In this document: in pieces, positions 160 through 59,697 of the stretch
Position numbering within the stretch: position 1 is the first letter of the stretch
How the letters are laid out: the number at the start of each line of letters is the position of its first letter
Source of the DNA: Artocarpus heterophyllus
Taxonomy: Eukaryota; Streptophyta; Magnoliopsida; Rosales; Moraceae
DNA: 64,000 bases
Assembly: GCA_025403435.1 (NCBI GenBank)
Contig: CM046332.1
Span: 7,805,903 to 7,869,902 of the forward strand
Direction of reading: 5' to 3'
The notes under the pieces: model-generated
The model's database searches: none
What the model was told of the DNA's origin: nothing
The model's input: the letters and a program-made list of their open reading frames with translations, nothing else
Program-made: the position numbers and the translations under genes

Positions 160-235
160 TCGGCAGGCCGAACATTCTGATCGGCAGGCCGCTCAGGCCA
201 GTTTGGCAGGCCGAACACGTCATCCGGCAGGCCAA
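160..235. repeat. Phased dyad array in Cop1 3' LTR (4 units)
   Basis: Units of the form TCGGC-AG-GCCGA start at 160, 181, 203 and 224, a spacing of 21, 22 and 21 bp. The third and fourth units carry TTGGC and CCGGC variants. GC-rich, set in AT-rich LTR sequence. Confidence 0.9.
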
Positions 236-386
236 ACTCCTGAGAAAAATCTCCGCGAATCTTTTATTTTCCACCCGAGATTCTAAAGGATAAAGTCTCA
301 GTTTTGATTCAAATAACCCAATAGAGAAGTTATTTGATCAAAACAAACTTTCTCAAAATAATCTCTAAGAAAATAAATCAATTCAC

Positions 387-545
387 AATAATTCTACAAG
401 TTTATCTTGTTCTAATTTGTCCAAAATTAAAACAACCGATAAATAGACATGAATTATCTGATCGCAATAATTCAACAAGTTTATCTTGAACTAATTTCTT
501 ACAAAATTAATTCAACCGATAAAGACATGAATTATTTGATTCTTA
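387..545. repeat. 79-bp direct repeat inside copia LTR
   Basis: AATAATTC(T/A)ACAAG begins at 387 and again at 466. Each is followed by a similar stretch ending in a CGATAAA...GACATGAATTAT motif. The same tandem pair is visible in the other copia LTRs (for example 10080-10240 and 17740-17895), so it belongs to the family and is not a local event. Confidence 0.7.
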
Positions 546-1671
546 CAAATTTTAAACCAATCTGATAAATCTGACATAAGTCACCAATTATTGGAAAAGC
601 ACGCCGTGTCGTTACAGGATTTTGTGAGCTAGCAAAGGGGACCAAAATGGTCCTATAAAGTTCAAGCTCATGATAATTATGAAACCCAATATCCCAGATA
701 TACATTTCACAATTATCAACTCTAACGCTACTCCACTAAAAGCTTGGAGCTGCACTCTCGAACTTTATAGAATTAAGAAGCTCGTGTAGCTAAGTCTCCA
801 TGACATATCATAGTGTATCGCATCCCCATATGTTTATCCATAATCGGCTTAAGGACAAGTTCTGTCTTACCTTCCCGATTATTTTTATCTTACGTTCCAT
901 TGTCTCATCATTAGAAAACTTACCATCTAAATATAGTATACCATTCGATTACACCTATGTATCCAAATGGTTGAGCGCTCTAGTTTTCCAATTACAGGAC
1001 AACGCATAGAAGAGGATATCATTACTCCTAAAGAGGAGCTATGGATTCCATATCTATGAATAACAAGTCTACGCTATCAAGAGTCGTGCCTCCAACGTAC
1101 CGGCATGCATACCACTATAGAGATGTGGGAGTCACCCATTGGTACATCAAAAGACACAAGTCGAGGCAACGGGCCCACTATTCATCTCAGGATTAAGATA
1201 CAATACAAATGACTGTCTAAAGTGAATCGATTTGCCAAGACAGAATTATTAATCAAAATCAATTCACTTTATGTCCCGATCCAACACATCGTCACCTATG
1301 ACAACGCGCCAATGTTTCTATTCACGGAGTCCAACTCCGATGGTCAAGACAAACCATCTCCCAAAAGGGATATAGACAACATAACAATCTTTACATGAAT
1401 AAAGCGCCCAACTTTATTCCTTCGATTGCGGATCATATGTTTTAGACCGTCACCCTAAGAATCGTGTCTTTCACATAATCAGTCCATCATATGCCCAATT
1501 CTTAAGGTTTAGACTGACAGTCTCAGACTACTGTTTGCTTATCATACATTCAACGAATATGAACATAATAAGGACAAGATTTGGTATATATATGAATGAA
1601 TAAATTCTTTATTCATAAAAATGTCTTCAAAATCATATTACATTTTTACTCCTTAGGGCATACATGTCTAT

Positions 1672-1698
1672 CAGTATCCGCATTTGTTTTGTTTCTAG
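1672..1698 (+). pseudogene. pol: C-terminal tail of gypsy pol (last 8 codons and stop)
   Basis: Reads QYPHLFCF then TAG. This matches the end of the Gyp3 chromodomain tail (LYPHLFCF). It is too short to stand as a gene and is reported because it fixes the truncation point of Gyp1. Confidence 0.75.
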
Positions 1699-2020
1699 AT
1701 TGATATGTAAATTTCGAGGGCGAAATTTTTTTGGGGGTGGAGAGTTGTAACGCCCCAAAATTTATTTAACATTATTGTAATGTAAAATAATGAATTAGTG
1801 TGCCGTAATTAATGTTTCAACATTAATTTGATCATTTGGTTAAATTTTGAATTTTAAGTTGTTTTGTTAATTTAGTAAATTCTAATGATTTCTTATTGTT
1901 TTAAAAATGTTGTTTTGAGATTTAAAACACAACTGTTTGTAAAATGCTAAAAATATTCCATTTTACAAAAACCATGGGTGGCACATGGTTTTCGCATAGT
2001 AAAACCGCCCATCATTTCTC

Positions 2021-2030
2021 TATATTTATT
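2021..2030 (+). promoter_or_regulatory. TATA-like promoter element of Gyp1 LTR
   Basis: TATATTTATT followed by a (CT)-rich tract (2031-2110). The same TATA plus pyrimidine tract arrangement occurs in Gyp2 and Gyp3 LTRs. Confidence 0.55.
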
Positions 2031-2590: not shown

Positions 2591-2735
2591 TTGGTAGGCC
2601 GAACTATGTGTTCGGTAGGCCGGATTCAAAGGATCGGCAGGCCAGACTCATCCATTCGGCAGGCCAAACCTGAGAAATGTCTAGCCGATCGGATCTGATT
2701 TCTGGCAGGCCGAAGCAGGGCGCCCAGCAGGCCGG
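2591..2735. repeat. Phased dyad array in Gyp1 LTR (about 7 units)
   Basis: Units related to TCGGC-AG-GCCGA start near 2591, 2612, 2634, 2656, 2681 (degenerate), 2702 and 2724, a spacing of 21-25 bp. The array lies about 560 bp downstream of the TATA-like site, so it should be transcribed. Confidence 0.85.
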
Positions 2736-3888: not shown

Positions 3889-6800
3889 ACGTGCTTCCAA
3901 CTTATTCGCATCTTTAAATAGGACATGAGCCAGACATCCGCATATGTGAATATGGTTTAAAGATGTCTTCCTACCCGTCCACAATTCATGAGGAGTTTTA
4001 GGGATCGATTTTGAAGGCACATTGTTCAAAAGATAACATGCGGTTTGTAGTGCATATCCCCAAAAGGATAAAAGCAATGATGAATAACTCATCATGGTCC
4101 TTACCATGTCTAATAAAGTCTTATTCCTTCTTTTCGCTACACCATTCTGCTTCGGAATGCCTAGCGCCATCAAATGGGATAAAATCCCATTCTAATAAGT
4201 GTCCTAGAAACTTATCGGAAAGGTATTCTCCACCTCGATCGGATCGAAGTGCATTTATGGGTCTGCCCAATTGTTTTTCCACTTTAGCCCAAAACTCCTT
4301 GAACTTGTCATAAGTTTCGCTTTTGTGGTGCATTAGGTACACATACCCATATCTTGAGTAATCATCAATAAAAGTGACGAAGTACTCATACCCTCCTCAT
4401 GCCCGGATGTTCATCGGTCCGTAAACTTCACTATGCATAAGTTCTAGAACCCCTTCGGCCCTATTGCCCTTAGACTCGAACGGTCTTTTGGTCATTTTAC
4501 CCTCCGAACAAGATTCACATTGAGGTATAGATTTCACCTTTAATTGATTTAAAGGTCCATCCTTTACTAGCCTATGAATCCTATTCAGGTTAACACGACC
4601 AAGGCACAATGCCAAAGATAAGTCTTATTAGAGTAAGAAGTTCTAAGTCTTTTAGAGTTATTATCATTCATCTCAACATTAAGTAGTAAGTCCATCTTAG
4701 GTTTGATAAAATATAGATTATTTTGCATCCATCCAAAATAGATAAAAGAATTGTTTTTACGAATCACTACTTTATTATTAAAAGAAACCAAATAGGAGTC
4801 TTTAAATAAACAAGCTATAGAAATTAAATTCCTTCTAAATTTTGAAATATAAAAACAATCTTGCAAAATTAAATCCCTATAATTATCAAAAAAAGATGAA
4901 AGTCTCTCACTGCTTCTACCAAGACCAAGGATCCATGTCTAATAAAGTCCTATTCCTTCTCTTCGCTACGCCATTCTACTATGGAGTGCCCAACACAGTC
5001 AAATGGGATAAATCCCATTCTAATAAGTGTCTTGGAAACTTATCAGAAAGGTATTCTCTACCTCAATAGGATCGAAGTGCATTTATAGGTCTACCCAATT
5101 GTTTTTCCACTTTAGCCCAAAACTCCTTGAACTTGTCATAAGTTTTGCTTTTGTGGTGCATCAGGTACACATACCCATATCTTGAGTAATCATCAACAAA
5201 AGTGACGAAGTAATCATTCCCTCCCTATGCCCGGATGTTCATCGGTCCATAATCATCACTATGCATAAGTTCTAGAACCCCTTCGACCCTATTGCCCTTA
5301 GACCCGAACGGTCTTTTGGTCATTTTACCCTCTGACCAAGATTCACATTGAGGTATAGATTCCACCTTTAATTGACTTAAAGGTCCATCCTTTACTAGCC
5401 TATAAATCCTATTCAGGTTAACACGACCAAGGCGTAAATGACAAAGATAAGTTTTATTAGAGTAAGAAGTTCTAAGTCTTTTAGAGTTATTATCATCCAT
5501 CTCAACATTAAGTGGTAAGTCCATCTTAGGTTTGATAAAATATAGATTATTTTGCATCCATCCAAAACAGATACAAGATTTGTTTTTACAAATCACTATT
5601 TTATTATTAAAAGAAACCAAATAGGAGTCTTTAAACAAACAAGCTATAGAAATTAAATTCCTCTTAAATCTTGAAATATAAAAACAATCTCGTAAAATTA
5701 AATTCCTATAATTATCAAAATAAAGATGGACGTCTCTCACTACTTCTGGCAAGACCAAGGATCCGTGTCTAATAAAGTCCTATTCCTTCTTTTCGTTATG
5801 CCATTCTACTACAGAGTGCCTGGCGCAGTCAAATAGGATAAAATCCCATTCTAATTAGTGTCCAAGAAACTTATCAGAAAGGTATTCTCCACCACAACGG
5901 ATCAAAGTGCATTTATGGGTCTACCCAATTGTTTTTCCACTTCAGCCCAAAACTTCCTAAACTTGTCATAAGTTTTGCTTTTGTGGTGCATCAGGTACAC
6001 ATACCCATATCTTGAGTAATCATCAATAAAAGTGACGAAGTACTCATACCCTCCTCATGCTCAGATGTTCATCAGTTCGTAAACATCACTATGCATAAGT
6101 TCTAGAACCCCTTCGGCCCTATTGCCCTTAGACCCGAACGGTCTTTTGGTCATTTTACCCTCTGAACAAGATTCACATTGAGGTATAGATTCAACCTTTA
6201 ATTGACTTAATGTCCATCCCTTACTAACCTTTGAATCCTATTCAGGTTAACATGACCAAGGCGCTGCCAAAGATAAGTCTTATTAGAGTAGGAAGTTTTA
6301 AGTCTTTTAGAGTTAATACCATTCATCTCAACATTAAGAAGTAAGTTCATCTTTAGTTTGATAAAATATAGATTATTTTACATCCATCTAGAACAGATAA
6401 AATATTTGTTTTTACGAATCACTACTTTATTATTAAAAGAAACCATATAGGTGTCTTTAAATAAACAAGCTATAGAAATTAAATTCCTTTTAAATTTTGA
6501 AATATAAAAACAATCTCAAAAAATTAAATTCCTATAATTATCAAAATAAAGATGGACGTCTCTCACTGCTTCCGCCAAGACCAAGGATCCATCGCCCATC
6601 TGAAGCATGAAGTCTTCATGAACTAGACTTCTCGTTTCTTTGAACCCCTGTAAAGAAACACAAACATGATTAGTTGCACCGAAATCTATGACCCAGATGT
6701 CACTAGATTCCTCAACTAAACAAGTTTCTAAATACAGAAGATCACACCTACCTCCTTTGGAAATGAAGTCATTGCAATGCTCTTTATGTGCTCGACCTTC

Positions 6801-8510: not shown

Positions 8511-8736
8511 CAAGCCGATCTAGGTGATAGGCCTATCCGTCATGACCCACAGGCCTGCCGATCTTCACAGATTGGCCTGCGGATTCATGACAGATCGGCT
8601 TGCCAAACTAGAAGTTTGGCCTACCGCTAGAGCCATCTGATTTCTGCCATGCTGATGACCTGTCGAGCCTTACGCCCAGCCTACTAATCTACGACAATCG
8701 GCCTGCCAAACTAGAGGGTTCGGCATGCCAACCGAG
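8511..8736. repeat. Dyad array in Cop1 leader
   Basis: Repeated TCGGCCTGCCGA-type units and decayed forms such as TTGGCCTACC and CGGCTTGCCAA, at about 21-23 bp with gaps. Orientation is opposite to the LTR array on the same strand (CT rather than AG spacer). Confidence 0.8.
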
Positions 8737-9240: not shown

Positions 9241-9242
9241 AT

Positions 9243-9353: not shown

Positions 9354-9874
9354 TGTTGGAAACAAAGTGCGCAGGGGAATTTTTTTTTTTTCATCAGAGT
9401 ATTTTCCAAAACACAAGTTTGACATGTTATATGTATAAATTAAACAGATCTTACTAACCTCAGTGTGCCGAAGAACCTCCACAACTTGTGTAGAGAAGTA
9501 ACGTTCCAGAAGAGCCTCAACCAACTGGTCTTCTTTGCTATTCTCTATCCACAACCAGAGTGAGTGTGGGCTCACACGTACAGCTCTTCAACTAGTGACT
9601 CTCCTTCCAACCAATAGAGAGAACCCAAAGCTAGTGCTCATGATTTGTGAACAAAAGCTCTCAGGGAGTTTTTCAGATGCTCAATAGAAGAGTATCACTC
9701 TTAATCTCTCAAATTGATCTAAGTAAATCATGAGACTCACTCCCTTTTTATACCTATTGGTCATGGGGTCAGTCCATATAAGATTAGGTCTCAAAAAAAA
9801 CTCGAAATAGAATTAAGTTTGGATCAATATCTGATAAGATCCTCGTGAAAACGCGTAATCTTATCTACCGCTGA

Positions 9875-9930
9875 TCGGCAGGCCGAACTGGCCAGTTCGG
9901 TAGGCCGAACACATCATCCGACAGGCCGAA
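9875..9930. repeat. Phased dyad array in Cop2 3' LTR (3 units)
   Basis: Starts at 9875, 9897 and 9918 (22 and 21 bp). The first unit is the exact 12-nt consensus TCGGCAGGCCGA. Confidence 0.9.
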
Positions 9931-11381: not shown

Positions 11382-11383
11382 CA

Positions 11384-16291: not shown

Positions 16292-16517
16292 TCGGCAGCT
16301 CTTGGTCGGCAGGCCGATCTGGGTGATCGGCCTTTCGGTCTTGCTCCATCGGCCTGCCGATCTAAAACATCAGCCTGCCGATCTATGTAGGTTCGGCCTG
16401 CCGAACTGAAACTTCGGCCGGCCGGCAGAGCACCAAATTTTCTACCCCACTGTCGGCCAGCCAAACGTGCCAATCCATGACCTTCAGCCTGCCGAACTGT
16501 GAGGTCCGGCATGCCGA
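16292..16517. repeat. Dyad array in Cop2 leader (about 9-11 units)
   Basis: TCGGC-CT-GCCGA-type units start at 16306, 16327, 16349, 16370, 16393 and 16414 (21, 22, 21, 23, 21 bp), then at 16453, 16484 and 16506. Extra half-sites lie at 16292 and 16335. Confidence 0.9.
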
Positions 16518-17552: not shown

Positions 17553-17586
17553 TCGGTAGGCCGAACAGGCCAGTTCGACAGGCCGA
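17553..17586. repeat. Phased dyad array in Cop2 5' LTR (2 units)
   Basis: TCGGTAGGCCGAAC at 17553 and TCGACAGGCCGAAC at 17575, 22 bp apart. Aligned with the 3' LTR it lacks exactly one unit. Confidence 0.88.
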
Positions 17587-19035: not shown

Positions 19036-20947
19036 TGAATGCCAAAAAACTCCTGCAATCCGTGAAGAGAAGTAACGTCCCATAGGAGCCTCAATAAACT
19101 GGTTTTCTTCCCTATTCTCTATCCATGATCGGAGTGAGTGTGGGCTCATATGTACAGCTCTTCCACTAGATGACTCTCCTTCTGACCAAATGAGAGAACC
19201 CAAAGCTAGTGTTCATGATTTGTGAACAAGAGCTCTCAGGGAGTTTTTAAATTCTCGCCAATAGAGTTTCACTCTTAATCTCTCAATTGATCTTAATAAT
19301 AATGAGACTCATGCCCTTTATATAGAGGCTGGGTCCAGGAGTCAGTCCTTATCTGATAATGCATCAAAATTTGAATTAGAATGAAATTTGGATCAATATC
19401 TGATGAAATCTACGTGAAAACGCATGATCCTTTTATCGCACCATCGGCATGCCGATCTATCTAACCGGAATGCCGAACCTACTCCATCGGCACGCCGAAC
19501 CTGAGGATTCGCATGCCGAACTACTGATAGAAATCTCAGCAAATCTTTTATTTTCCACCTGAGATTCTATAAGATAAAGTCTCAGTTTTAATTCAAATAA
19601 CCCAAAAGAGAAATTATATAATTAAAACTACTTTATCTAGATAATCTCTAGGAAAATAAATGAATCCCTGATAATTCAAGAAGTTTTATCTTGAATTAAT
19701 TTAAAATTAATCCAACTGATAAACAGACATGAATAATCTGACCCCAATAATTCAACAAGTTTATCTTGAATCAATTTTGTCACAAAATTAATTCAACCAA
19801 TAAACATACATGAATTATTAGATTCTTCTGAATTTTAGCCAATATGATAAATCTAACATAAGTCACCAATTATTGAAAAAACACGCCATATCGTTATAGG
19901 ATTTTGTGAGCTAGCCAATGGGACCAAATGGACCTATATAGTTCAAGCTCCCAATAATTACGAAACCCAATATCCCAGATATACATTTCATAATTATCAA
20001 TTCCAACACTACTCCACTAAAAGCTTGGAGCTGCACTCTCGAACTATATAGAATTACTAAGCCCGTATAGCTAAGTCTCCATGACATATCATAGTGTATC
20101 GTATCCCCATGACATAACCGGCTAAAGGACAAGTTTTATTTTACGTTCCCAATTATTTTTATCTTACGTTCCATTATCTCACCATTGAAAAAATTACCAT
20201 CCAAAGATGGTATACCATTCGGTTACACCTATGTGTCCAAATGGTTAAGCGCTTTAGTTTTCCAATTAGATGATAACACATATAAGAGGATATCACTACT
20301 CCTAAAGAGGAGCCACAAATTCTATATCTATGAATAACAGGTCTACGCTATCAAGAGTCATGCCTCCAATGTACCGACATGCATACCACTATTAAAATGT
20401 GGTTGTCACCCTTTCGTATATCAAAAGACACCAGTCAAGACAATAGGCCCACTATTCATCCCAGGTTTAAGACACAATACAAATGATTGTCTAAAGTGAA
20501 TCGATTTGCCGAGACAGAATTATTAATCCAAATCAATTCACTTTATGTCTCGATCTAACACATCGTCACCTCTGACATTGTGCCAATGTTTCAATTCATG
20601 GAGTCCACATCCGATGGTTAAGATAAACTATCTCCCTATAGGGATATAGACAACATAACAATCTTTACATGAATAAAGTACCCAACTTTATTCTCTCAAT
20701 TGCGGATCTTATGATTTAGACCGTCACCTTAAGAATCGTGTCTTTTGCATAATCTATCTATCATATGCCCAATTCTTAAAGTTTTAGACCAACAGTCTTA
20801 GACTATTGTTTGCCTAACATACATTTAACAAATATGAACATAAAGAAGACAATATTTGGTATATAAATAATAAATAAATTCTTTATTGATAAAAATGTCT
20901 CCAAAGGCATATTACATTTTTACTTCTTAGGGCATACATGTCTAATA
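19036..20947 (-). repeat. Cop1 5' LTR, second part
   Basis: Continues the LTR interrupted at 9353 and ends GTCTAATA at 20947, where Cop3 leader sequence begins (TGAAC, expected to be the target duplication whose partner is off the left edge). Dyad units start at 19444, 19465, 19487 and 19508 (21/22/21 bp). Confidence 0.88.
19444..19519. repeat. Phased dyad array in Cop1 5' LTR (4 units)
   Basis: TCGGCATGCCGA at 19444 is a perfect 12-nt palindrome; further units follow at 19465, 19487 and 19508. The last has lost one G. Confidence 0.88.
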
Positions 20948-21330: not shown

Positions 21331-21502
21331 CTGGCAAGCTAATCTGGGTGATCGGCCTGCCGATTTTTTCAGGTCGGCCTACTGGTCATGATAGTTTGGC
21401 CTACCACTAGAGCCACCTAATTTTTACCTTGCTAACGGCCTACTGAACCTTACGCCGGGCCTGCCGAATTGGAAGGTTTGGATTCGGCATGCCGGCCGAG
21501 AA
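21331..21502. repeat. Dyad array in Cop3 leader
   Basis: Units at 21331, 21352 and 21374 (21 and 22 bp), then decayed TTGGCCTACC-type copies and a TTCGGCATGCCGG copy near 21482-21495. Confidence 0.8.
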
Positions 21503-21999: not shown

Positions 22000-22001
22000 A
22001 T

Positions 22002-24028
22002 TGTTGAAAAAATAGTACGTAGTGAAATTTAAAAATTTTTATATCAAAGTATTTTCTAAAACACAAGTTTGACATGCTATATGCATAAATTAGCTAAATC
22101 TTACTAACCTTGTAAACGCTAAAAAGCGTCCTCAATCAGTGTAGAGAAGTAATGTTCCAAAAGGACCTCAACCAATTGACCTTCTTTGCTCTTTTCTATC
22201 CACGATAGGAGTGAGTGTGGGCTCACATGTACAACTCTTCACCAGGTGACTCTCTTTCCAACAAATTGAGAGAACCCAAAGCTAATGTTCGTCATTTGTG
22301 AACAAGAGCTCTCAGGAAGTTTCAGAATCTCACTGTCAGAGTTTTACTTTTAATCTCTCAACTGATCTAAATAATAATGAGACCCACTCCTTTTTATAGA
22401 GGTTGGGTCTAGGAGTTAGTCATTATCAGATAATGCCTCAAATTCAAATTAGAATCAAATTCGGATTAATATATGATGACATCCGCGTGAAAACACACGA
22501 TCTTTTTATCACGCGACTGGCATGCCGATCTACTTAACCGACATGCCGAACTTGCTCCATCAACAGACCATACCTGACGATCGGCATGCCAAACTACTGA
22601 GAAAAAATCTCAGCAAATCTTTTATTTTTCACCCGAGATTCTATAGGATAAAGTCTCAGTTTTAATTTAAATAACCCAATAGATAAGTTATCTAATTAAA
22701 ACAACTTTATCTAGATAATCTCAAGGAAAATAAATGAATTTCTAATAATTCAACAAGTTTATCTTGAATTCATTTAAAATTAATCCAATCGATAAACAAA
22801 CGTGAATTATCTGACCTCGATAATTCAACAACTTTATCTTGAATCAATTTTGTCACAAAATTAATTTAACCAACAAATAGACATGAATTACTTGGTTCTT
22901 CTTAATTTTAGCCAATTTGATAAATCTAACATAAGTCACCAATTATTGGAAAAGCACAACGTATCGTTACAGGATTTTTGTCTGCTTGCAAAAGGGACCT
23001 GATGGATCTATATATCTCAAGCTCTTGATAATTATGAAACCCAATATCCCAAATATATATTTCATAATTATCAACTCCAATGCTACTCCACTAAAAGCTT
23101 GAAGCTGCACTCTCAAACTATATAGAATTATGAAGTCCGTATAGCTAAGTCTCCATGACATATCATAGTGCATCATATCCCTATAGGATCATCCATAACC
23201 GGCTTAAGGACAAGTTCTGTCTTACCTTTCTGATTATTTTTATCTTATGTTCCTTTATCTCACCATCAAAAAACTTACCATCTAAAGACAGTATGCCATT
23301 TGGTTACACCTATTTATCTAAATGATTGAGTGCTCTAGTTTTCCAATTACAGGATAACGCATATAAGAGGATATCACTACTCCTAAAGGGGAGCTGTGGA
23401 TTCCATATCTATGAATAACAGGTCTTCGCTATCAAGAGTCATGCCTCCAACATACTGGCATGCATATCATTATTAAAATATGGGTGTCATCCTTTGGTAC
23501 TTCAAAAGATACAAGTCAAGACAATGAGCCCACTATTCATTTCAGGATTAAGATACAATACAAATGATTATCTAAAGTGAATCGATTTGCCGAGACAAAA
23601 TTATTAATCCAAGTCAATTCACTTTATATCCTGATCTAACACATCGTCACCTATGACAATGTGCCAATGTTTCTATTCATGGAGTCCACCTCCGACGGCC
23701 AAGACAAACCATGTCCCAATAGGGATATAGACAACATAACAATCTTTGCATGAATAAAGTGCCCAAATTTATTCTCTTGATTGCGGATCTTATGATTAGA
23801 CCGTCACCTTAAGAATCTTGTCTTCTGCATAATCTGTCCATCATATGGCCAATTCTTAAAGGTTTAGACTGACAGTCTCAGACTATTATTTACTTAACAT
23901 ATATTTTAACAAATATGAACATAAAGAGGACAAGATTAGGTATATAAATAATAAATAAATTCTTTATTGATAAAAATGTCTTCAAAAATATATTACATTT
24001 TTACTCCTTAGGGCATACATGTCTAACA
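22002..24028 (-). repeat. Cop3 5' LTR, 2027 bp
   Basis: TGTTGAAAAAATAGTACG ... GTCTAACA. Dyad units at 22517, 22538, 22560 and 22581 (21/22/21 bp). Its right flank (CTTAG at 24029) is leader sequence of Cop4 on the other strand, so Cop3 sits inside Cop4. Confidence 0.92.
22517..22592. repeat. Phased dyad array in Cop3 LTR (4 units)
   Basis: Starts at 22517, 22538, 22560 and 22581; two units keep a complete GCATGCC core and one is strongly decayed (TCAACAGACC). Confidence 0.85.
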
Positions 24029-28551: not shown

Positions 28552-28627
28552 TCGGCATGCCGATCCTCACATTCGGCCTGCCGATGGGGCAAGTTCGGTA
28601 TGCCAGTTAGATAGATCAGCATGCCAA
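28552..28627. repeat. Phased dyad array in Cop5 5' LTR (4 units)
   Basis: Starts at 28552, 28573, 28595 and 28616 (21/22/21 bp). The first is the perfect palindrome TCGGCATGCCGA. Confidence 0.9.
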
Positions 28628-28744: not shown

Positions 28745-28752
28745 GTATAAAA
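28745..28752 (+). promoter_or_regulatory. TATA box of Cop5 5' LTR
   Basis: TATAAAAA followed about 30-40 bp later by the conserved ATTGAGAGATTAAGAG stretch where transcription would be expected to start. Same site at 36445-36452 in the 3' LTR. Confidence 0.75.
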
Positions 28753-29146
28753 ATGGAGTGAGTCTTATTATTATTTAGATCAATTGAGAGATTAAGAGCG
28801 AAACTCTGATAGTGAGATTCTGAAATTCCCTGAGAGCTCTTATTCACAAATCATGAACACTAGCTTTGGGTTCTCTCAATTGGTTGGAAGGAGAGTCACT
28901 GGTGGAAGAGCTGTACGTGTGAGCCCACACTCACTCTGATTGTGGATAGAGAATAGCAAAGAAGGCTACTTGATTGAGGTCCTTCTGAAATGTTACTTCT
29001 CTACACTAATTGAGGAAGCTTTTCAGCATTTAGAAGGTTTGTAAGATCTAGTTAATTTATGCATATAGCATATCAAACTTGTGTTTTAGAAAATACTTTG
29101 ATATAAAAATTTTTAAATTCTACTGCGTATTATTTTTTCCAACAAT

Positions 29147-29665: not shown

Positions 29666-29893
29666 TCGGCAAGCCGAACCCTCCAGTTCGACAGGTCGAT
29701 GGTCATAAGATTGGTAGGCCAAACTTCAGGTTTGGTTGGCCGTCAGTGAGGCAGAAATCAGGTGACTCTGATCGTAGGCCAAACTTTTAGTTTAGCAGGC
29801 CGATTTATCATGAATCTACGGGCTGATCTGTGAAGATCAACAGGCCGGTGGGTCATGACTGAGAGGCCAATAACCTAGATCGACTTGCCGGTA
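29666..29893. repeat. Dyad array in Cop5 leader
   Basis: Units at 29666, 29688, 29711 and 29732 (22, 23, 21 bp), then about 29771, 29792 and later decayed copies to about 29893. Many CpGs have become TpG or CpA (TTGGT, GCCAAAC). Confidence 0.8.
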
Positions 29894-34832: not shown

Positions 34833-36844
34833 TGTTAGACATGTATGCCCTAAGGAGTAAAATTGTAATATGTTTTTGGAGACATTTTTATCAATAAAGA
34901 ATTTATTTATTTTTTCTTTATGTTCATATTTGTTGAATGTATGTTAAGCAAATAATAGTCTGAGACTATCAGTCTAAACCTTTAAGAATTGGGCATATGA
35001 TGGAAAGATTATGCAGAAGACATGATTCTTAAGATGATGGTCTAAATCATAAGATCTGCAATCAAGGGAATAAAGTTGGGCGCTTTATTCATATAAAGAT
35101 TGTTATATTATCTATATCCCTATTGGGAGATGGTTTGTCTTGACCATCGGAAGTGGACTCCACGAATAGAAACATTGGCACATTGTCATAGGTGACAATG
35201 TGTTGGATCGGGACATAAAGTGAATAGATTTGGATTAATATTTCTGTCTTAACAAATTAATTTACTTTAGACAATCATTTGTACTGTATCTGAATCTTGA
35301 GATGAATAGTGGGCCTGTTGTCTTGACTTGTGTCTTGTGACATACCAAAGGGTGACACCCATATTTTAATAGTGGTATGCATGCTGGTACATTGGAGGCA
35401 TGATTCTTTATAGCGTAGACTTATTATTCATAGATATGGAATCCATAGCTCCTCTTAAGGAGTAGTGATATCCTCTTATATGCGTTATCTTATAATTGAA
35501 AATTTAGAGCGCTCAACCATTTGGATACATAGGTGTAACCGAATGGTGTACTGTCTTTGGATGGTAAGTTTTTCGATGGTGAGATAATGGAATGTAAGAT
35601 AAAAATAATCAGAAAGGTAAGACAGAACTTGTCCTTAAGCCAATTATGGATAATCCTATGGGGATATGATACACTTTGATATGTCATGGAGACTTAGCTA
35701 TACGGGCTTTGTAATTCTATATAGTTCGATAGTGCAGCTCCAAGCTTTTAGTGGAGTAGCATTGCAGTTGAAAATTATGAAATGTATATCTAGGATATTG
35801 GGTTTCATAATTATTAGGAGCTTGAACTATATAGGTCCATTTGGTCCTCTTTGCTAGCTCATAAAATCTTGTAACGATAGGGCGTGTTTTTTTAATAATT
35901 GGTGACTTATGTCAGATTTATCAGATTGGCTAAAATTTGAAAGAATCAAATAATTCATGTCTGTTTATCGGTTGAATTAATTTTGTGACAAAATTAATTT
36001 AAGATAAACTTCTTGAATTATTGGGATCAGATAATTCATGTTTGTTTATCGGTTAGATTAATTTTGAAATAATTCAAGAAAAAACTTGTTGAATTATTAG
36101 GAATTCATTCATTTTCCTGGAGATTATCTAGATAAAACGGTTTTAATTAGATAACTTTTCTATTGGGTTATTTGAATTAAAACAAAGACTTTATCCTATA
36201 GAATCTCAGGTGAAAAATAAAAGATTCATTGAAATTTTTTATCGATAGTTCGGCATGCCGATCCTCATGTTTGGCTTGTCGATGGGGCAAGTTCGACATG
36301 CCAGTTAGACAGATTAGCATGCCAATCGCGCGTTAAAAAGATTACGCATTTTCACCTGGATTTCATCATATATTAATCCAAATTTGATTCTGATTCAAAT
36401 TTTGAGACATTATCTAATAAGGACTGACTCTTGGGCCCAACCTCTATAAAAAGGGAGTGAGTCTCATTATTATTTGAATCAATTGAGAGATTAAGAGTGA
36501 AACTCTGATAGTGAGATTCTGAAACTCCCTGTGAGCTATTTCTCACAAATCACTAACACTAGCTTTGGGTTCTCTTAATTGGTTGGAAGGAGAGTCACCT
36601 GGTGGAAGAGCTATACGTGTGAGCCCACACTCACTCCGATTGTGGATAGGGAATAGCAAAGAAGGCTAGTTAGTTGAGGTCCTTCTGGAATGTTACTTCT
36701 ATACACTGATTGAGGAAGCTTTTTAGCATTTACAAGGTTAGTAAGATCTGGTTAATTTATGCATATAGCATGTCAAACTTATGTTTTGGAAAATACTTTG
36801 ATATAAAAATTTTTAAATTCTGCTACGTACTATTTTTTCTAACA
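34833..36844 (+). repeat. Cop5 3' LTR, 2012 bp
   Basis: TGTTAGACATGTATGCCC ... TTTTCTAACA. Dyad units at 36250, 36271, 36293 and 36314 (21/22/21 bp) and TATAAAAA at 36445-36452. Confidence 0.95.
36250..36325. repeat. Phased dyad array in Cop5 3' LTR (4 units)
   Basis: Same 21/22/21 spacing as the 5' LTR of this element although several units have decayed (TTGGCTTGTCGA, TTAGCATGCCAA). Confidence 0.85.
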
Positions 36845-42138: not shown

Positions 42139-44145
42139 TGTTGAAAAAATAATGAGCTAACGAAATTTTAAAAATTTTTATATCTGACTATTTTTTAAAA
42201 CACAAGTTTAATACGCTATATACATAAATTAACCAAATCTTACTAACTTCTGTGTGCCAAAAAGCTACTACAATTAGTGAAGAAAAATAACGTTTCAGAA
42301 GGATCTCAACCAATTGGCCTTCTTTACTATTCTCCGTCTACGATCGGAGTGAGTATGGGCTCATACATACAGCTTTTCCACCAGATGACTCACCTTCCAA
42401 CCAATTGAGAGAACCCAAAGCTAGTCTTCGTGATTTATGAGCAAGAGCTCTTAGGAAGTTTCAGAATCTCACTATCAGAGTTTCACTCTTTATCTCTCAA
42501 CTGATCTAAATAATAATGAGACTCACTCCCTTTTTATAAAGGTTGGGCCCAAGAGTCAGTCCTTATCAGATAATGCCACAAAATTCAAAGCAGAATCAAA
42601 TTCGGATCAACATCTGATGAAATCCACATGAAAACGCATAATCTTTCTATCGTGCGGTCGGCATGCCAATCTGTCTAACTGGCATGCCGAACTTGTCTCA
42701 TTGGTAGGCCGAACCTGAGGATTAGCATGCCAAACGGTTGATAAAAAATTTCAACGAATCTTTTATTTTCCACCCGAGATTCTATAGGATAAAGTTCTAG
42801 TTTTAATTCAAATAACCCAATACAAAAGTTATCTAATTAAAACAACGTTATCTAGATAATTTCTAAGAAAATAAATGAATTCCTGATAATTCAACAAGTT
42901 TATCTTGAATTAATTCAAAATTAATCCAACTGATAAACAGACATAAATTATCTGATCTTAATAATTCAATAAGTTTATCTTGAATTAATTTTATTACAAA
43001 ATTAATTCAACTGATAAACAGACATAAATTATCTGATTTTACCAAATTTCAACCAATCTGATAAATCTGACATAAGTCACAAATTATTAAAAAAACACGC
43101 CGTATCGTTACGAGATTTTTGTGAGCTAGCAAAAGGGACTTGATGGACCTATATAGTTCAAGTGCCCGATAATTATGAAACCCAATATCTTAGATATACA
43201 TTTCATAATTATCGACTCCAACGCTACTCCACTACAAGCTTGGAGCTGCACTCTCATACTACATAGAATTATGAAGCCCATATAGCTAAGTCTCTATTAC
43301 ATATCATAGTGTATCATATCCCCATAAGATTATCCATAATCGGCTTAAGGACAAGTTTTGTCTTACCTTCCTGATTATTTTTATCTTACGTTCCATTATC
43401 TCACCATTGGAAAACTTACAATCCAAAGACAGTATACCATTCGGTTACACCTATGTATCCAAATGGTTGAGCGCTCTAGTTTTCCAATAAAAGATAATAC
43501 ATATAAGAGAATATCACTACTCTTAAAGAGGAGCTATGGATTCCAAATATATGAATAATAGTTATACGCTATCAAGAGTCATGCCTCCAACGTACCGGTA
43601 TGCAAACCACTATTAAAATGTGGGTGTCACTCTTTGGTATATCAAAAGACATAAGTCAAGACAATGAGCCCACTATTCATTTCAAGATTAAGATATAATA
43701 TAAATGATTGCCTAAAGTGAATCGATTTACTGACACAGAATTATTAATCCAACTCAATTCACTTTATGTCCCAAACCAACACATCGTCACCTATGACAAT
43801 GTGCCAATGTTTCTATTCGCGGAGTCCACTTCCAATAGTCAAGACAAACCATCTCCTAATAGGGATATAGACAATATAATAATCTTTACTTGAATAAAGT
43901 GCCCAACTTTATTCCCTCGACTACAAATCATATGATTTAGACCGTATAATTTGTCCATCATATGCCTAATTCTTAAAGGTTTAGACTGACAGTCTCAAAC
44001 TTTTTGTTTACTTAACATACATTCAACAAATATGAACGTAAAGAGGACAAGATTTGGTATATAAATAATAAATAAATTCTTTATTGATAAAAATGTCTCC
44101 AAAAACCTATTACATTTTTACTCCTTAGGGCATCCATGTCTAGCA
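42139..44145 (-). repeat. Cop6 3' LTR, 2007 bp
   Basis: TGTTGAAAAAATAATGAG ... GTCTAGCA. Dyad units start at 42658, 42679, 42701 and 42722 (21/22/21 bp). Confidence 0.93.
42658..42733. repeat. Phased dyad array in Cop6 3' LTR (4 units)
   Basis: Starts 42658, 42679, 42701 and 42722; spacing identical to Cop1, Cop3 and Cop5. Confidence 0.87.
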
Positions 44146-48108: not shown

Positions 48109-49236
48109 TTTTAATCCACAATAAAAAAATCATATTCCAAACGTAAGCAAACATATCATAATAATTTAGTAAGATAACACAATCATATAAAAACATACAA
48201 ATGTGTTTATGTGTCAAAACCTTGAAAAATATCACAACCTTACAATGATAATTCCCAACTCAGAATTTAACAAGCTCCTAGGGGAGTCATGCCAAATTAA
48301 ATCAGGAACACGGATCCCCTCCTGATTAATATATGCCATCCAGGACCCATATGATCCAAGAGAATATTCAAAACATATTATCGATTCTTCATCCCTGAAT
48401 TCTTATGCTGTATCCTTCTTCATGTAATCCCTATCTACAAGTCTTCAATCCCGCATGAATCAAATACTCCAAATTTCTAGTCTTATCTAGATTTTAAATG
48501 TTTCTCAGAATTGTCCAAAAATAAAATTCAAACTGCATAAAAAATTGCATCTTTTCTGGAATAATTTTTTAGCTCTTTACCGGCAAGCCGATCTGGGTGA
48601 TCGGTCTGTCGGTCATGACCTACCGGCCAATTGATCTTTTCATATCAACTTGCCGGTTCATGACTGATCAGCCAGCCGAACCAAAAGTTTGGCCTGCCGC
48701 TAGAGCCTCCTGGTTTCTGCCCCGCTGACATCCTACCGAAGATCACATCTAGCCTACCAAACTGTGACCATCGACCTGTCGAACTAGAGGGTTCGGCATG
48801 TCGACCCAACAGAAACCACCCTTTTCAAAAAATACAGTTTCCAATGCAATTTATCAATTTTATTTTTAACAATTCAAAAACATAAAACTAGAGACTCAAG
48901 ACATACCGAGGAATGCCATCATCCATCTTCTAGATCCGTCTTCTTCAAATGATTATTTAATTGCAAAATTATTACAAATTTAAACCTCTAAGGAACCGTA
49001 ATCGACATAAATTAATTAATTAATTAATAATTAAATAGTAATTTAATCAATCATATTTAATTAATAAGCATTCACCATATAATTCATGACAACATATACT
49101 ATTATATAGAAACCTAGAGTGTCAACTGTCTATAAAATTAAATTCAAGCATATGAGAGATCAAGATCATATAATTTACACATATAGCATGACCACAAACT
49201 CGTAAATTTACTTTTAAACCTGGCTCTGATACCAAT
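48109..49236 (-). other. Cop6 5' leader with internal deletion
   Basis: About 550 bp shorter than the Cop1 and Cop2 leaders: near 48360 sequence from the first CCTAGGGG hairpin region jumps to the stretch before the dyad array. Primer-binding site (exact TGGTATCAGAGC, minus strand) at 49223-49234. Dyad array 48580-48807. Confidence 0.85.
48580..48807. repeat. Dyad array in Cop6 leader
   Basis: Begins CCGGCAAGCCGATC at 48580, with repeated TCGGCC/TTGGCCTGCC forms and an end copy GTTCGGCATGTCGA near 48791. Partly decayed. Confidence 0.75.
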
Positions 49237-51073
49237 TATTGGAAAAATAGTATGCAGTGGAATTTAAAAAATTTTTATATCAGAGTTTTTTTTAAAACAC
49301 AAGTTTGACACACTATATGCATAGATTAACCAGATCTTACTAACCTCTAGGTGCCAAAAAGCTCCTGCAAACAGTGAAGAGAAGTAACATTTTAGAAGGA
49401 CCTCAACCAACTGGCCTTCTTTGCTATTCTCTATCCACGATCAGAGTGCGTGTGGGCTCACATGTACAGCTGTTCAACCAGGTGACTCTCCTTCCAACCA
49501 ATTGAGAGAATCCAAAGCTAGTGTTCGTGATTTGTGAACAAGAGCTCTTAAGGAGTTTTAGAATCTCACTATCAGAGTTTCACTCTTTATCACTCAACAG
49601 ATCTAAATAATAATGAGACTCGCTGTTTTTTTATAGAGGTTGGACCCAAGACTCAGTTCTTATCATATAATGCCTCAAAATTTGAAGCAAAATAAAATTC
49701 GGATCAATATTTGATGAAATCTACGTGAAAACGCATGATCTTTTTATCACGCGGTCGGCATGCCGATCTATCTAGCCGGCATGCCGAACTTGCCTCATCG
49801 GCAAGCCAAACCTGAGGATCGGCATGCCGAACTGTTAATGAAAAAGTTATCCAATTAAAACAACTTTATCTAGAGAATCTCTAGGAAAATAAATGAATTC
49901 TTAATAATTTAACAAGTTTATCTTGAATTAATTCAAAATTAATGCAACCGATAAACGGACATGAATTATCCAATCTTGATAATTCAATAAGTTTATCTTG
50001 AATTAATTTTATCACAAAATTAATTCAACTGATAAACATACATAAATTATTTGATTTTACTAAATTTTAGCCAATCTGATAAATCTGACATAAGTCACGA
50101 GTTATTGGAAAAATACGCCGTATCGTTACAGGATTTTTGTGAGTTAGTAAAGAGGACTTGATGGACCTATATAGTTCAAGCTCCTAATAATTATGAAACC
50201 CAATATTCTAGATATACATTTCATAATTATCAACTCCAATGGTACTCCACTACAAGCTTGGAGCTACACTCTCGAACTACATAGAATTACGAAGCCCATA
50301 TAGCTAAGTCTCCATGACATATCATAGTGTATCGTATCCCCATAGGATTATCCATAATCGGCTTAAGGACAAGTTCTGTCATACCTTCCAATTATTTTTA
50401 TCTTACATTCCATTATCTCATCATTAGAAACCTTACCATCCAAAGACAGTATACCATTCGGTTACACCTATGTATCCAAATGGTTGAGCGCTCTAGTTTT
50501 TCAATTACAAGATAATACATATAAGAGGATATCACTACTCCTAAAGAGGAGCTATGGATTCCATATCTATGAATAATAGGTCTATGTTATCAAGAGTCAA
50601 GCCTCCAACGTACCGGCATGCATACCACTGTTAAAATGTGGGTTTCACCCTTTGGTATATTAAAAGACACAAGTCAAGACAACGGGCCCACTATTCATTT
50701 GAGGATTAAGATACAATACAAATGATTGTCTAAAGCGAATTGATTTGCCGATACAAAATTATTAATCCAACTCAATTCACTTTATGTCCTGATCTAACAC
50801 GTCATTACCTATGACAATATGCCAATGTTTCTATTCGCAGAGTCCACCTCCGATGGTCAAGACAAACCATTTCCCAATTAGGATATAGACAACATAACAA
50901 TATTTACATGAATAAAGCACCCGACTTTATTCCCTCGATTGCGGATGTTATGATTTAGACCATCACCTTAAGAATTATGTCTTCTGCATAATCTATCCAT
51001 CATATGCCCAATTCTTAAAAGTTTAGACTGGCAGTCTCGGACTTTTTGTTTGCTTAACATACATTCAACGAAT
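49237..51073 (-). repeat. Cop6 5' LTR, clipped
   Basis: Starts TATTGGAAAAATAGTATG beside the primer-binding site. It runs collinear with the left LTR as far as ACATACATTCAACGAA and then changes abruptly to unrelated sequence. Dyad units at 49755, 49776, 49798 and 49819 (21/22/21 bp), three of them well preserved. Confidence 0.9.
49755..49830. repeat. Phased dyad array in Cop6 5' LTR (4 units)
   Basis: TCGGCATGCCGA at 49755 and 49819 are perfect palindromes; CCGGCATGCCGA and TCGGCAAGCCAA lie between. Confidence 0.9.
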
Positions 51074-53768: not shown

Positions 53769-53864
53769 TTGGCATGCCGATCTAGGAGATCAGCCTACCA
53801 AACTTATTCCATCGGCCTACTAAATTTTCCATCGATCTGTTGAACTTTTCCATCGGCTTGCCGA
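53769..53864. repeat. Phased dyad array in CopS (5 units)
   Basis: Starts at 53769, 53790, 53812, 53832 and 53853 (21, 22, 20, 21 bp). One unit more than the standard copia LTR. Confidence 0.85.
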
Positions 53865-55198: not shown

Positions 55199-55887
55199 TC
55201 CTCGATGAGAGGAATGCAATGGTGTGACAGGCCAGAAAAACCAGGGCCAAACGGCGCCAGAATCGACCTTAGAAGGTCCAAAAGGGTGGTGGATTTTGTC
55301 CTTCTCTAGTAGCCTATGGTGAGTCAGACAACGATACTTCAGCATCAGGGTTTTTAGGTGGAAACGCTCCTTTTTGACTGACGTGTGTGTCGATCAGTGG
55401 CCAGAGATGAGTCAGATGGGGAGAGGCAGTGAAAAGGGGAATTCTTCGTGGGTGTTAGAAGAAGAAGGAGAGAAAGGGAAAGAAGAAAACAAAAAAAAAA
55501 GAAAAAGAAGATATGAAAAGTCAGGGTGGAAGTCTTTTGGGTGGGTCACATAGGAAAAGATTTGATCTTTATGATCAGATCTTTTTTTTTTTTTTTGAAT
55601 TTTCTTGAATAGTTTCTAGAATGAATTTCTACCCTAAAATTGTCAAAATTTTCAAATTAGCCCAAAATTATGAATTCTTTTTCAATTAAAACCATGGGTT
55701 TTATAGATTTAATTGATTTTACTTTTGAATTGATTACTTGCTTTGGTTAGATGGTTTTAATTTTCATTCATCTAATTCCAGCGTTTCTTTGCTAATCAGT
55801 TTGCTTGGGAGATGGGCCTTCCTCTTGATTGAATGGAAGCCTTTAAGATTGCTCTTGAGCTAGACCATCCTTGAGGTGTGATGGTTT
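55199..55887. other. Unclassified spacer between CopS and Gyp2
   Basis: Begins with the right part of the split frame (55199-55309). It then has a purine-rich GA/AAG tract (about 55440-55520), a T-run near 55581-55597 and AT-rich sequence. No gene recognised. Confidence 0.6.
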
Positions 55888-56167
55888 TGTAACGCCCCGA
55901 AATAAATTAAGTAATGTTAGTGTATAAAATGGTGAATTAGTGTGCCATAATGAATAATTTAACTAAATTTGATCATTTTATGAAATTTCTAAATTAATGT
56001 TATTTTTATTATTTTTATTTTAATGATTTTTAGTTACTCCTAAATACTTCTAATTTGCTATTTCAAATTTTGTAACAAAACAATTTGTCAAATGTCAAAA
56101 ATGCTTGTTTTGTAAAACTATGGGTGGCACACGGTTTCCACACAATGAAACTTCCCACTTATTCCCC

Positions 56168-56175
56168 TATTTATA
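56168..56175 (+). promoter_or_regulatory. TATA-like element of Gyp2
   Basis: TATTTATA directly upstream of a CT-rich tract (56176-56285), matching the arrangement in Gyp1. Confidence 0.6.
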
Positions 56176-56737
56176 CCCCCTCTCTCACTTTCTCTCCTCA
56201 CTCTCTCTCTATGTCTCTCACGTCTCTCTCTTCCTCTTTCCTTCACTGCCTCTCTTTCTCTCTCTTCCTCTCTCAATTTTTGCTTTAAAAATCAAGCCAA
56301 GCTTTTGGTTTAGTGGATTGGAGGCTCAGGAACGCAATTGAGCAACCAAAAACACGATTTCAAGCTTAAATCCAAGGTTAGTTTTCAAATTTCAAAACTT
56401 TTTCAATTTTTTAATTTTTCTTGTATTTTGAAATATAAGTTCATTTAAGCTTAGAAAACTCTTAATCTAAGTTAGATAAACTTAAAACAACTAGAATCTA
56501 AGCTTTGTTTGATCAAAAACCGATTTAAATCAAGATTTTTCATTTTTCTCTATTTTCAGAATTTTTCAAAATCATTGTTTAAGCCTTGTTTAAATTGGTT
56601 CAAAAGTGTTTTATATTATTTTTCTATCATCTATGATTGTTTTCCATGCCTAAGAACTAAGAAAAATAGGTTGAAATAAGGAATTAAGCTCGGGGAGGCT
56701 GAGAACCCGTGCCTGGAAAATTATGGAATTTTTCAGT

Positions 56738-56882
56738 TCTGTAGGCTAAACTTCGTGTTCAGCAAGCTGGATTCATACGTTCGGTAGGCCGAATATAGAA
56801 AAGTTCAGCCGACCGGACCTGGTTTTTCGACAGGCCGAACTGCACAGTTCGGTAAGCCAAACCAGGGTGACCGATAGGCCGA
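56738..56882. repeat. Phased dyad array in Gyp2 (7 units)
   Basis: Starts at 56738, 56759, 56781, 56805, 56827, 56849 and 56871 (21, 22, 24, 22, 22, 22 bp). Confidence 0.87.
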
Positions 56883-58087
56883 CCTAGGCTGACCGGGCAT
56901 GGTGAAAATTTGTTATTTTTCATCCGTTTTTGTTGTTTTGAACCTAGATTGAAATTCTAACTTTATAAAAAGATTTTATAAGTACAAATGGCACACTAGG
57001 ACAACATGAGATAGCTTAGCAACGTGGGATATCTCAAGCTAGATACTGATAGACCTAGTTACTATACATTTAAGGTTGTTCGTAGTTCTATGGAGCTAAC
57101 ATACAGTAGAGTGGGATTGTGGTGCTGAGTCATGACACTGGATATTAAGGTAGGACTTCTACCCTTTCTTTGGTAACATAATTTTTAAATGATCTTGGCC
57201 TCAAAAGGATTTTTATCGATTAATTTCATAAACAGTGGATTGAGGTGAATTTCATAATGAACTCCATAATAAATGTAAATGAAAAATATTCGGTAAAAGG
57301 AGATTTTTAATAATTATAGAAAATATATAGAAGGACATGATACCATATCAGAGATCGGATCATGTAGCATGCGACCTTGGGGTCAGGTCCTGAAACCTAG
57401 CTGGGCCACTACGGTGGTGTTCTACATATGGTTTGCTTAGGAAAAAGAAGATGATATTCTTTCTGGTCGACCAATAAATGATTTTGGTAAGAATAATTTT
57501 TTATTAAATTTTATATATGTATTCAAGTCTATTTTCTAAATTAGTTTTCGAATAATGAAGTTTTCTTTTAAAATTAAATGTTTCTAAAAATATAGTCCTA
57601 TTGAGCCTTTTGCTCATGTTTTATTTGTTTTTATAACTTTTTCCCCATTCTAGGTGGATTTCAGCTTAGGATCGGATAAGAGTCCATAGACAGGACACAA
57701 GAGCAATAGAAGAACCCAGTAGGTTATTTAAATTACTAAATCAAGGCATGTAATATTCTAACTCTCTCTCTTTACTTGGACTGTGGTTGTAATATAACAG
57801 TGTCAGTATTATATGTGTGCACAAGATGTGGGTTAGTGAGACCCATTCTCATTTCTTTTTATTTCTTTATTACTTTCTTATTGTTTACGTTTACTTTGAT
57901 ATTCTTATTTGTTTAATTATTATAAATACTTGTTTTTTTAAAAAAAAGGTTTTAAAAATTTCCACATTTTCATAATTAATTTAAATATTTAAACTCATGT
58001 TTTAACTAAATTTTTACTTAATTAACTTAATTAACCCGTCACGTTACCTCCCATTTGTCGGGGCGTGACAAGTTTTCATGGGAGTTT

Positions 58088-58380
58088 GGGCCTGTTTGGC
58101 ACAACTTCTATTTGTACTTTTAGTTGGTAAAAGAAGAGAAGTAAAAGCTGTAGCTTTTCAATAAGTATTTAGAACCATATTTTTAAAAGAGGTTTTATGA
58201 GTCAAAATTGTTTCAATTTTTTTGTTACAAAAATATTATATATAAGCTTATAATATATTATAAGTGCTTTTTTATGAGTCAAAGTTTATTTCAGAAGTGC
58301 TTTTTTAAGAAACTACATTTTGTAACTTTAACATGAAGCACTTATTGAGAGCAAAAGTACTTTGACAGTTTATCCAAACA
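58088..58380. mobile_element. Possible miniature inverted-repeat element (hAT-like)
   Basis: Left side GGGCCTGTTTGGCACAACTT and right side reading inward TGTTTGGATAAACTGTC are imperfect inverted ends, and both are followed by GTACTTTT. GGGCCTGTTTGG is a common terminus of plant hAT-type miniature elements. The right terminus is degraded and no target duplication was identified. Confidence 0.4.
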
Positions 58381-59551
58381 CTTGCAAAAGCAGTTTTTTA
58401 ACTCAGGAAGTGTCACGCCCCGGAGTACGAGAGGTGACGTGGCAGAATATTTAGATTAATTAAAAGAGAATTTAATTAAAAATCGAGAGTTTGAGAATCA
58501 AATTAAATAAAAATTAAGAAGATTTCCACCATATTTTATAAAAGAATTTATAAATATTAAGCAAATAATAATAATTAATTAAAAACCGCGAATATGGGTT
58601 CCACAACCCACAACTTGTGCACACACATGGTTCTGACAATATCATAAATACAATTACAGTCCAAGTACAAATAAAGTTAAAGTCTTACATGCCTTGATTT
58701 AATAATACAAAATATAAATAAACTCTCCTATTGCTCCTGAGTTCGGTCCGAAGAATCCTCTCCAAACCTAAATGGGAAACCACCTAGAAGGGGGAAATTT
58801 AAAACAATAAAATGTGAGCGAAAGGCTCAGTAGGACTATGTTTTATAAATAATTTAATTTGAAGAAACAGTTCATTGTTAGGAGTACTCAAAAGAAAACT
58901 TAAATAAATAAATACATAATTTGAGTAGAGCCGTTCTGACACAGAACAGTCTACTCGTACAATCAAAAACACCATTTTTTCTTTTACCTAGGCAAACCAT
59001 GATATCACCACCGTAGTGGCCCAGCTGGGTTTCGGGACCTACCCCCAAGGTCGATCGCTACACGACCCAATCTCTGATATGGCATCATGCCCATGTGTTT
59101 ATTATCATTATCATTCAAAACCCTATTACCGAGTGTTGTCAATTACATTTATTATGAAATTCATTTCAGATCACGGTATATTAAAATATAACCGATAAAA
59201 CCATTTTCAAACAACCGTTGAAAACATTTTGATAGAAATCCTTTTCAAAGCCAAATCATTTCAAAACCAGGCTACCAAAGAAATAGGATAGAAGTCCTAC
59301 CTCAATACTCGTGCCGGTGCCCCACACCGCAATCTTGGTCCACTATACGTTAGCTCCACGGAACCACAAACGATCCTAAATACAAACTAAGTCGATCAAT
59401 ATCTAGTTCGAGACATTCTATGTTACTAAATCATTTCATGATGCCCTAGTGTGCCATTTGTACCTTTAAAATCATCCTATAAGGTTGGGATTTAAATCAG
59501 GGTTCAAAACAGTGAAAACGGGTAAAAATCACAAAATTTTCTATGCCTCGG

Positions 59552-59697
59552 TCGGCCTGCCGGACGCCCTGCTTCGGCCTGCCGAACTGCACAGTTCGGC
59601 CTGCCGGAAGCAAAGTTCGGTCGGCCGAACATTTCCCCAGATTCGGCCTGCTGGTCGGAAGAACACCGGCCTGTCGATCATCACTCCGGCCTGCCGA
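59552..59697. repeat. Phased dyad array in Gyp3 LTR (7 units)
   Basis: Starts at 59552, 59574, 59596, 59617, 59643, 59666 and 59686 (22, 22, 21, 26, 23, 20 bp). Several units are full TCGGCCTGCCGAAC. Overlapping frames rich in Arg/Pro/Ala on both strands come only from the repeat. Confidence 0.9.

Follow-up and report, generated by a model that had tools for sequence, protein, structure and literature searches.

Background

Why would long terminal repeat (LTR) retrotransposons of two superfamilies, Ty1/copia and Ty3/gypsy, carry the same short dyad in regularly stepped arrays? The question is raised by a stretch of 64,000 nucleotides from Artocarpus heterophyllus (GenBank assembly GCA_025403435.1, contig CM046332.1, positions 7,805,903 to 7,869,902; G000:C6:7805903-7869902 in our numbering), referred to below as the window. 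An original prediction, made from these letters alone, held that a 12-nt unit, TCGGCNNGCCGA, is repeated in copia LTRs at steps of 21 and 22 bp, in copia leaders, and in gypsy LTRs at looser steps, and it proposed a cooperating dimeric protein as the binder. The observation as a whole was confirmed, and its interpretation is partly supported. At least four LTR-retrotransposon families from both superfamilies carry the unit in this genome, and the array is likely to be an enhancer (we put the probability at roughly 0.6), in which one dimeric host protein would occupy sites on one face of the helix.

Boxes of a related kind are known from Sireviruses. The RM boxes were described in 13 of these elements, 12 of them with a CGG-CCG core (Bousios et al. 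2010, PMC2829016), and the unit studied here includes such a core in the form CGG-N4-CCG. According to the accessible portion of that paper, the RM box is specific to Sireviruses and absent from classic copia elements, its units differ between elements, and protein binding and activation of transcription were a proposal lying outside the evidence of 2010. We describe below how frequent and how regularly spaced the unit is, which elements carry it, and which explanation accounts best for its presence in both superfamilies.

Results and Discussion

The unit is in large excess and prefers steps of 21 or 22 bp

The window contains 16 exact copies of the unit, and 45 copies if one mismatch is tolerated, whereas shuffled sequence yields 0.01 and 0.19 on average, and a scan of 985 Mb in 334 contigs, restricted to exact matches, returned 78,652 sites against 221 for the reversed-pattern control. 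A chance origin was rejected on these counts. The idea that any GC-rich dyad would behave in this way was rejected as well: in 200 kb the unit occurs 12 times as an exact dyad, but none of the 29 other ways to order the letters of its half-site occurs as one (0 in total), and in 250 kb the 12 exact dyads of TCGGC stood against 6 summed over 159 other half-sites with four G/C. Among IMG/VR contigs there were 0 matches to a two-unit pattern.

Exact unit pairs lie 21 bp apart in 4,698 cases and 22 bp apart in 5,076 (reversed controls 3 and 0), against 306 pairs at 13-20 bp and 1,863 at 23-39 bp (reversed controls 0 and 0), so that 21 or 22 bp accounts for 9,774 of the 11,943 exact pairs spaced by 13-39 bp (82%). 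For exact matches, the genome-wide scan and spacing check that had been suggested together with the original prediction came out in its favour. Within the window, a scan allowing three mismatches recovered four of the five sets of unit starts that it had listed (160/181/203/224, 28552/28573/28595/28616, 42658/42679/42701/42722 and 49755/49776/49798/49819). In the fifth, the copia LTR array 22517..22592 (minus strand), the unit placed at 22560 lies beyond three mismatches, leaving three units at up to two mismatches with steps of 21 and 43 bp.

The unit is shared by copia and gypsy elements

The window is rich in copies of one copia family, which we call copiaA and whose LTRs are about 2 kb long; seed plants supply the best protein matches. 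Ten copia LTRs bear at least two units at up to two mismatches, where the original prediction had counted nine copia LTRs with the unit. The copiaA element at 9354-19030 (minus strand) has its 3' LTR at 9354-11369 and its 5' LTR at 17033-19030, 94.6% identical, and is bordered by a 5-bp target duplication, AAGGT. On the same strand, its 3' LTR carries three units at steps of 21 and 22 bp (9875..9929), its 5' LTR two units 22 bp apart (17553..17586), and the leader between the 5' LTR and gag eight or nine (16306..16517). A TATAAAAA box at 9745..9752 (minus strand) lies 123 bp downstream, in element sense, of the first of these arrays, and another at 28746..28753 (plus strand) lies 119 bp downstream of an array of four units at up to three mismatches, stepped 21/22/21 bp (28552..28627, plus strand). 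Both copia LTRs inspected therefore have a TATA box 119-123 bp past the array, and the two to five units of copiaA LTRs form a cluster upstream of a TATA box, as RM boxes do.

copiaA is not a Sirevirus. The Sirevirus junction CA/ATTGG followed by TATCAGAGC is present as CAACAATTGGTATCAGAGC, and as CAACA-AT-TGGTATCAGAGC in element 9354-19030; a primer-binding site for met-tRNA is common, hence this mark is not exclusive to Sireviruses. Two other marks are lacking. Where a Sirevirus has several AGGGGGAG polypurine tracts, one of them exactly 10 bp from the 3' LTR, a single polypurine-like GTGGGAG adjoins the LTR of 9354-19030, near the end of pol; and where a Sirevirus has a long linker between pol and the 3' LTR, the RVT_2 frame and the frame after it (to 11384) nearly reach the LTR start at 11369.

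On the gypsy side, a 3' LTR with TG...CA ends at 58411..60547 (minus strand) carries seven units at steps of 20-26 bp (59552..59697, minus strand). The pol of this element occupies 60596-63700, and its 5' LTR is found just beyond the window. This partner LTR shares 98.2% identity with the 3' LTR over 2,137 bp and likewise has seven units, in agreement with the number and steps predicted for gypsy LTRs. Since both LTRs carry it, the array belongs to the gypsy LTR itself, and a nested copia insert was rejected as its source. The predicted sharing between superfamilies accordingly holds for copiaA LTRs and leaders and for both LTRs of this gypsy element. Two gypsy families with the unit can be distinguished, both Ty3/gypsy by their domains and the order of these: gypsyA, with RVT_1, RNase H and SH3_Tf2-1 and no match to the Pfam chromodomain, and gypsyX, with RNase H, H2C2, a weak rve, SH3_Tf2-1 and Chromo, the domain expected of a chromovirus.

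A Sirevirus of the same genome (L035, L047 and L049) bears the identical unit in its LTR and in its linker. Two exact octamers lie about 60 bp apart, the last of them 10 bp before TGTTGG (the LTR start was read by eye), and the LTR has 13 units upstream of the TATA box TATATATAT. Right after pol, the linker (L047:1690-1766) holds three CT-centred units, followed about 15 bp on by TATATAA and a CT-rich stretch, which looks like the internal promoter proposed for env. Such a further cluster in the linker before env was seen in the Sirevirus only, judged by its position after pol. A TATA box beyond the array is thus present in two copia LTRs, the Sirevirus LTR and the Sirevirus linker, and the unit is not confined to Sireviruses, being carried also by copiaA, gypsyA and gypsyX. 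Between the Sirevirus LTR array and its TATA box (L035:318-328, minus strand) there is also an exact match to YCYAACGGYYA, the consensus of plant M-phase activators; no match to it was found in the window or in 48 other loci.

In a sample of 25 stretches of 10 kb (250,000 bases) from the first 4 Mb of contigs C1-C25, arrays occurred in 4 of the 25. All 28 of 28 units with at most one mismatch lay within homology to array-bearing elements, which covers 15,546 of the 250,000 bases; 26 were in LTRs and leaders of copiaA and gypsyA and 2 in family Y, an array-bearing repeat that we leave unclassified (L033, L038 and L020:985-1498). The full coverage also used array-centred pieces of families X, Y and Z, each represented by one or two loci, and was 26 of 28 without those pieces. 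The array loci L031-L046 were chosen by hand from the first listed matches on contig C1, so that the shares of families among them are not genome proportions.

The unit is a 16-bp dyad with an oriented centre

Unit anatomy was studied in 190 distinct units from all families at up to two mismatches, a set in which the gypsy LTR 55887-58071 and some copia loci are not in element sense. Positions outside the detection pattern are constrained (G at -1 in 72%, W at 0 in 90%, W at 13 in 87% and C at 14 in 59%), the two central bases are M and K in 93% and 96%, and beyond positions -1 and 14 base composition is near background. The extended site is a near-palindromic 16-bp dyad, GWTCGGC-AG/CT-GCCGAWC. 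AG or CT forms the centre of 145 of the 190 units and of 62,016 of the 78,652 exact genomic sites. The original prediction had described a dyad that becomes a perfect palindrome when its centre is AT; this perfect form accounts for 8,034 of the 78,652 sites, and AG or CT is usual.

Read in element sense, the centre of copiaA units is CT in 40, AG in 1 and AT in 17 of 66 cases in LTRs, and AG in 25 and CT in 3 of 45 in leaders. It is AG in 35 of 39 gypsyA units, CT in 13 of 14 gypsyX units and CT in all 16 of 16 Sirevirus units, and 12 of 12 units of family Y share one orientation. The centre is CT where the array precedes a TATA box (copiaA LTR, Sirevirus LTR and Sirevirus linker) and AG where the array is downstream of a likely promoter (copiaA leader and gypsyA). 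It points to the promoter in all five arrays with a readable promoter, two of which come from one Sirevirus and two from copiaA, and this is a lead, not a result; because of it, the array may be a directional enhancer. Since the centre is directional and the units of an array usually run one way, arrays probably grow by tandem duplication.

Comparison with known systems

The arrays resemble the Sirevirus RM box in being a CGG-CCG dyad in many copies, clustered before the LTR TATA box and again before env (PMC2829016). They are unlike it in that one unit is common to a Sirevirus, a non-Sirevirus copia family (LTR and leader) and two gypsy families, and in their 21/22-bp step, of which the accessible portion of that paper makes no mention for the RM box (PMC2829016). 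Maize Sirevirus palindromes also form fast-varying CGG...CCG clusters in the LTR regulatory region, but their unit, as given in the accessible portions of the reports, is CACCGGACNNNGTCCGGTG (PMC10760457, PMC5311732); the 2023 maize study found the Sirevirus palindrome in Helitrons too, with no obvious structure peak in Ty3 elements in its accessible portion (PMC10760457). The original prediction had rightly pointed to the Sirevirus palindromes, but missed both the common CGG-CCG core and the genome's own Sirevirus with the unit. Activator boxes of the Tnt1 type are likewise repeated and sometimes symmetric, but come in fewer copies, have other sequences and, as far as is known, are each limited to one family. 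Tandem boxes of this type in the LTRs of classic copia elements are mentioned in PMC2829016. Our literature search, with many relevant papers outside its coverage, found no report of one such unit common to a Sirevirus, other copia elements and gypsy LTRs. The new part is an RM-type box outside Sireviruses, in another copia family and in gypsy, across the superfamilies.

A probable enhancer for a dimeric host protein

Placed beside promoters in otherwise unrelated LTRs, and recurring roughly every two turns of the helix, the dyad looks like clustered sites for a dimeric protein. It shares its CGG-CCG core with the Sirevirus RM, and the mechanism that we propose is accordingly an RM-type enhancer beyond Sireviruses. 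A dimeric host protein would bind near-palindromic 16-bp sites, mostly 21 or 22 bp apart, and the bound proteins would cooperate on one face of the DNA and activate the LTR promoter. The families would have gained their sites separately, each profiting from the same host factor, and arrays would grow by tandem duplication, after which spacers would drift while the sites were kept. The cooperating dimeric binder of the original prediction is one that the sequence fits: the site is a dyad of 16 bp, compensatory changes of the kind that would indicate an RNA stem are not in excess, and a TATA box lies 119-123 bp beyond the array in two copia LTRs. As to its identity, the DREB half-site is GCCGAC, and a DREB-type binder is disfavoured, the base after GCCGA being A or T in 87% of units and C in 11%; the literature search gave no lead to a named plant binder of the unit.

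Several observations weigh against an enhancer of this kind. Units are conserved no better than the rest of the LTR, with unit columns at 0.597 against 0.597 in gypsyA, where 93 of 200 shifted masks reach the value, and at 0.642 against 0.795 in copiaA, where 184 of 200 do. The phase is preferred genome-wide, as predicted, but it is not strict, because gypsy spacing is looser and includes 20, 23 and 26 bp. In gypsyA the likely promoter, a TATTTAT-like box with a CT-rich stretch seen in five LTRs, precedes the array by about 570 bp, so that the array is downstream and not upstream of it. Some LTR pairs lack the unit: a copia element whose reverse transcriptase is 50% identical to that of copiaA has a 345-bp LTR pair without units (L022), and a 1.2-kb direct repeat pair starting with TGTAACG has none either (L026), on which grounds we rejected the idea that all copia elements, or all LTR elements, carry the unit. 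Finally, the arrays fold well as RNA, with z-scores of -1.6 to -6.0 in eight of them.

The claim that dyad and phase are preserved and other sequence is lost survives in part. Although the units do not exceed the rest of the LTR, they do exceed the spacers, whose columns reach 0.521 against 0.597 in gypsyA and 0.504 against 0.642 in copiaA. CpG columns stand at 0.537 in units against 0.475 elsewhere in gypsyA, and at 0.589 against 0.658 in copiaA, and most changes in the core are either transitions at a C or G or, at the two ends, T-to-C and A-to-G changes. Unit number varies as well, being 3 versus 2 in the paired LTRs of 9354-19030 and 4 versus 5 between related LTRs. As the LTRs of that single element differ by one unit, arrays lose or gain units after insertion.

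The original prediction had offered three origins for the sharing: a host factor bound by both superfamilies, capture of one promoter module, and convergent growth of a mini-satellite. By capture, recombination or template switching would have carried one Sirevirus-type array into the other families, where it drifted, possibly still serving as an enhancer. This would account for a unit, flanking bases and an AG/CT centre that are alike in all families seen, and for the one spacer type that is alike in gypsy and copia and lies in the best cross match (55 bp, E 6e-10). However, the mean best identity of gypsy to copiaA spacers is no higher than in shuffled ones (286 and 290 of 300 shuffles did as well, with 4 and 12 gypsy spacers), and the array and its edge account for all 6 of 6 gypsy-copia matches with E<0.001, leaving, as predicted, no other likeness between the LTRs of the two superfamilies. 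Spacers so unlike favour separate acquisition over a recent transfer of the whole array, and we consider capture unlikely.

The arrays might instead act as RNA, their transcribed palindromes forming hairpins that become small-RNA hot spots, with a 21/22-bp step that echoes small-RNA size. Palindrome regions of maize Sireviruses are described as such hot spots (PMC10760457, PMC5311732, as far as their accessible portions go), which adds to the folding of the arrays. Yet a self-complementary unit folds regardless of function, and the shared orientation of centres within an array leaves mismatches when units pair. Among 950 cells there are 4 double changes in the dyad, of which 3 keep Watson-Crick pairing, where 7.95 would be expected, so that an excess of the compensatory stem changes of an RNA hairpin is not seen. 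C>T and G>A changes occur in nearly equal numbers (16 and 15, 11 and 12). The power of both tests is limited by the decay of copies once inserted, mostly without selection. No known RNA family was found in the window at the gathering threshold. As the explanation of the arrays an RNA source seems quite improbable to us; since the arrays fold well, a small-RNA role may coexist with that of an enhancer.

That arrays simply grew as mini-satellites without function and were spread by their carriers is very improbable, since, despite Tandem Repeats Finder calls of period 21-23 in several arrays, the fast change in unit number (3 versus 2 within one element, 4 versus 5 among relatives) and unit conservation no higher than that of the LTR, growth alone would not lead four unrelated families, whose spacers are unrelated too, to the same 16-bp dyad, nor keep CpG-rich units alike while spacers within one array differ (L036). 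Conservation is also higher in units than in spacers. As a process, mini-satellite-like growth does occur as well, as the turnover of unit number shows.

The enhancer reading can be extended, with considerable doubt, to a tentative picture in which unrelated LTR retrotransposons of one genome converge on a host-specific enhancer password, an oriented and helically phased array for a single host factor. The CGG-CCG frame would be old and the exact unit host-dependent, as the published table of Sireviruses suggests, and the unit would be tracked in parallel by Sireviruses, other copia elements and gypsy elements, possibly as a directional enhancer. If the enhancer reading is right, boxes thought to be marks of Sireviruses would be a common key of several unrelated retrotransposon lineages in one host, in about 79,000 exact copies. 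Convergence of transposons on a single host activator would become directly testable, with the site serving as bait for the protein, and host genes next to the arrays could come under the control of this factor as well.

Other arrays and repeats in the window

The unit scan located further copia LTR arrays of four units stepped 21/22/21 bp at 160..235, 19444..19519 and 49755..49830 (all on the minus strand) and, allowing up to three mismatches, at 36250..36325 (plus strand) and 42658..42733 (minus strand); a decayed array of four units at up to three mismatches lies at 53769..53864 (minus strand). Additional copia leader arrays are found at 8550..8731, 21352..21495 and 48580..48804 on the minus strand and at 29666..29891 on the plus strand. 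An AT-rich block of about 74-81 bp, present in duplicate upstream of the array in copiaA LTRs (386-540, 10082-10233, 17738-17895, 28296-28441 and 42886-43041), is a second candidate regulatory repeat.

Two more gypsy LTR arrays were located on the plus strand, with seven units at 2591..2735 and seven sites at 56759..56896, both at up to three mismatches, the latter within the LTR 55887-58071. In the gypsy LTR at 58411-60547, the region 60100-60300, upstream of the array, contains a possible splice donor, GAGGTTAG, together with a TATTTAT-like box and a CT-rich stretch, an arrangement that would suit an array within an intron of the 5' untranslated region. Elsewhere, a copia coding region of about 830 bp is present as a triple tandem, about 91% alike, at 4104-6592.

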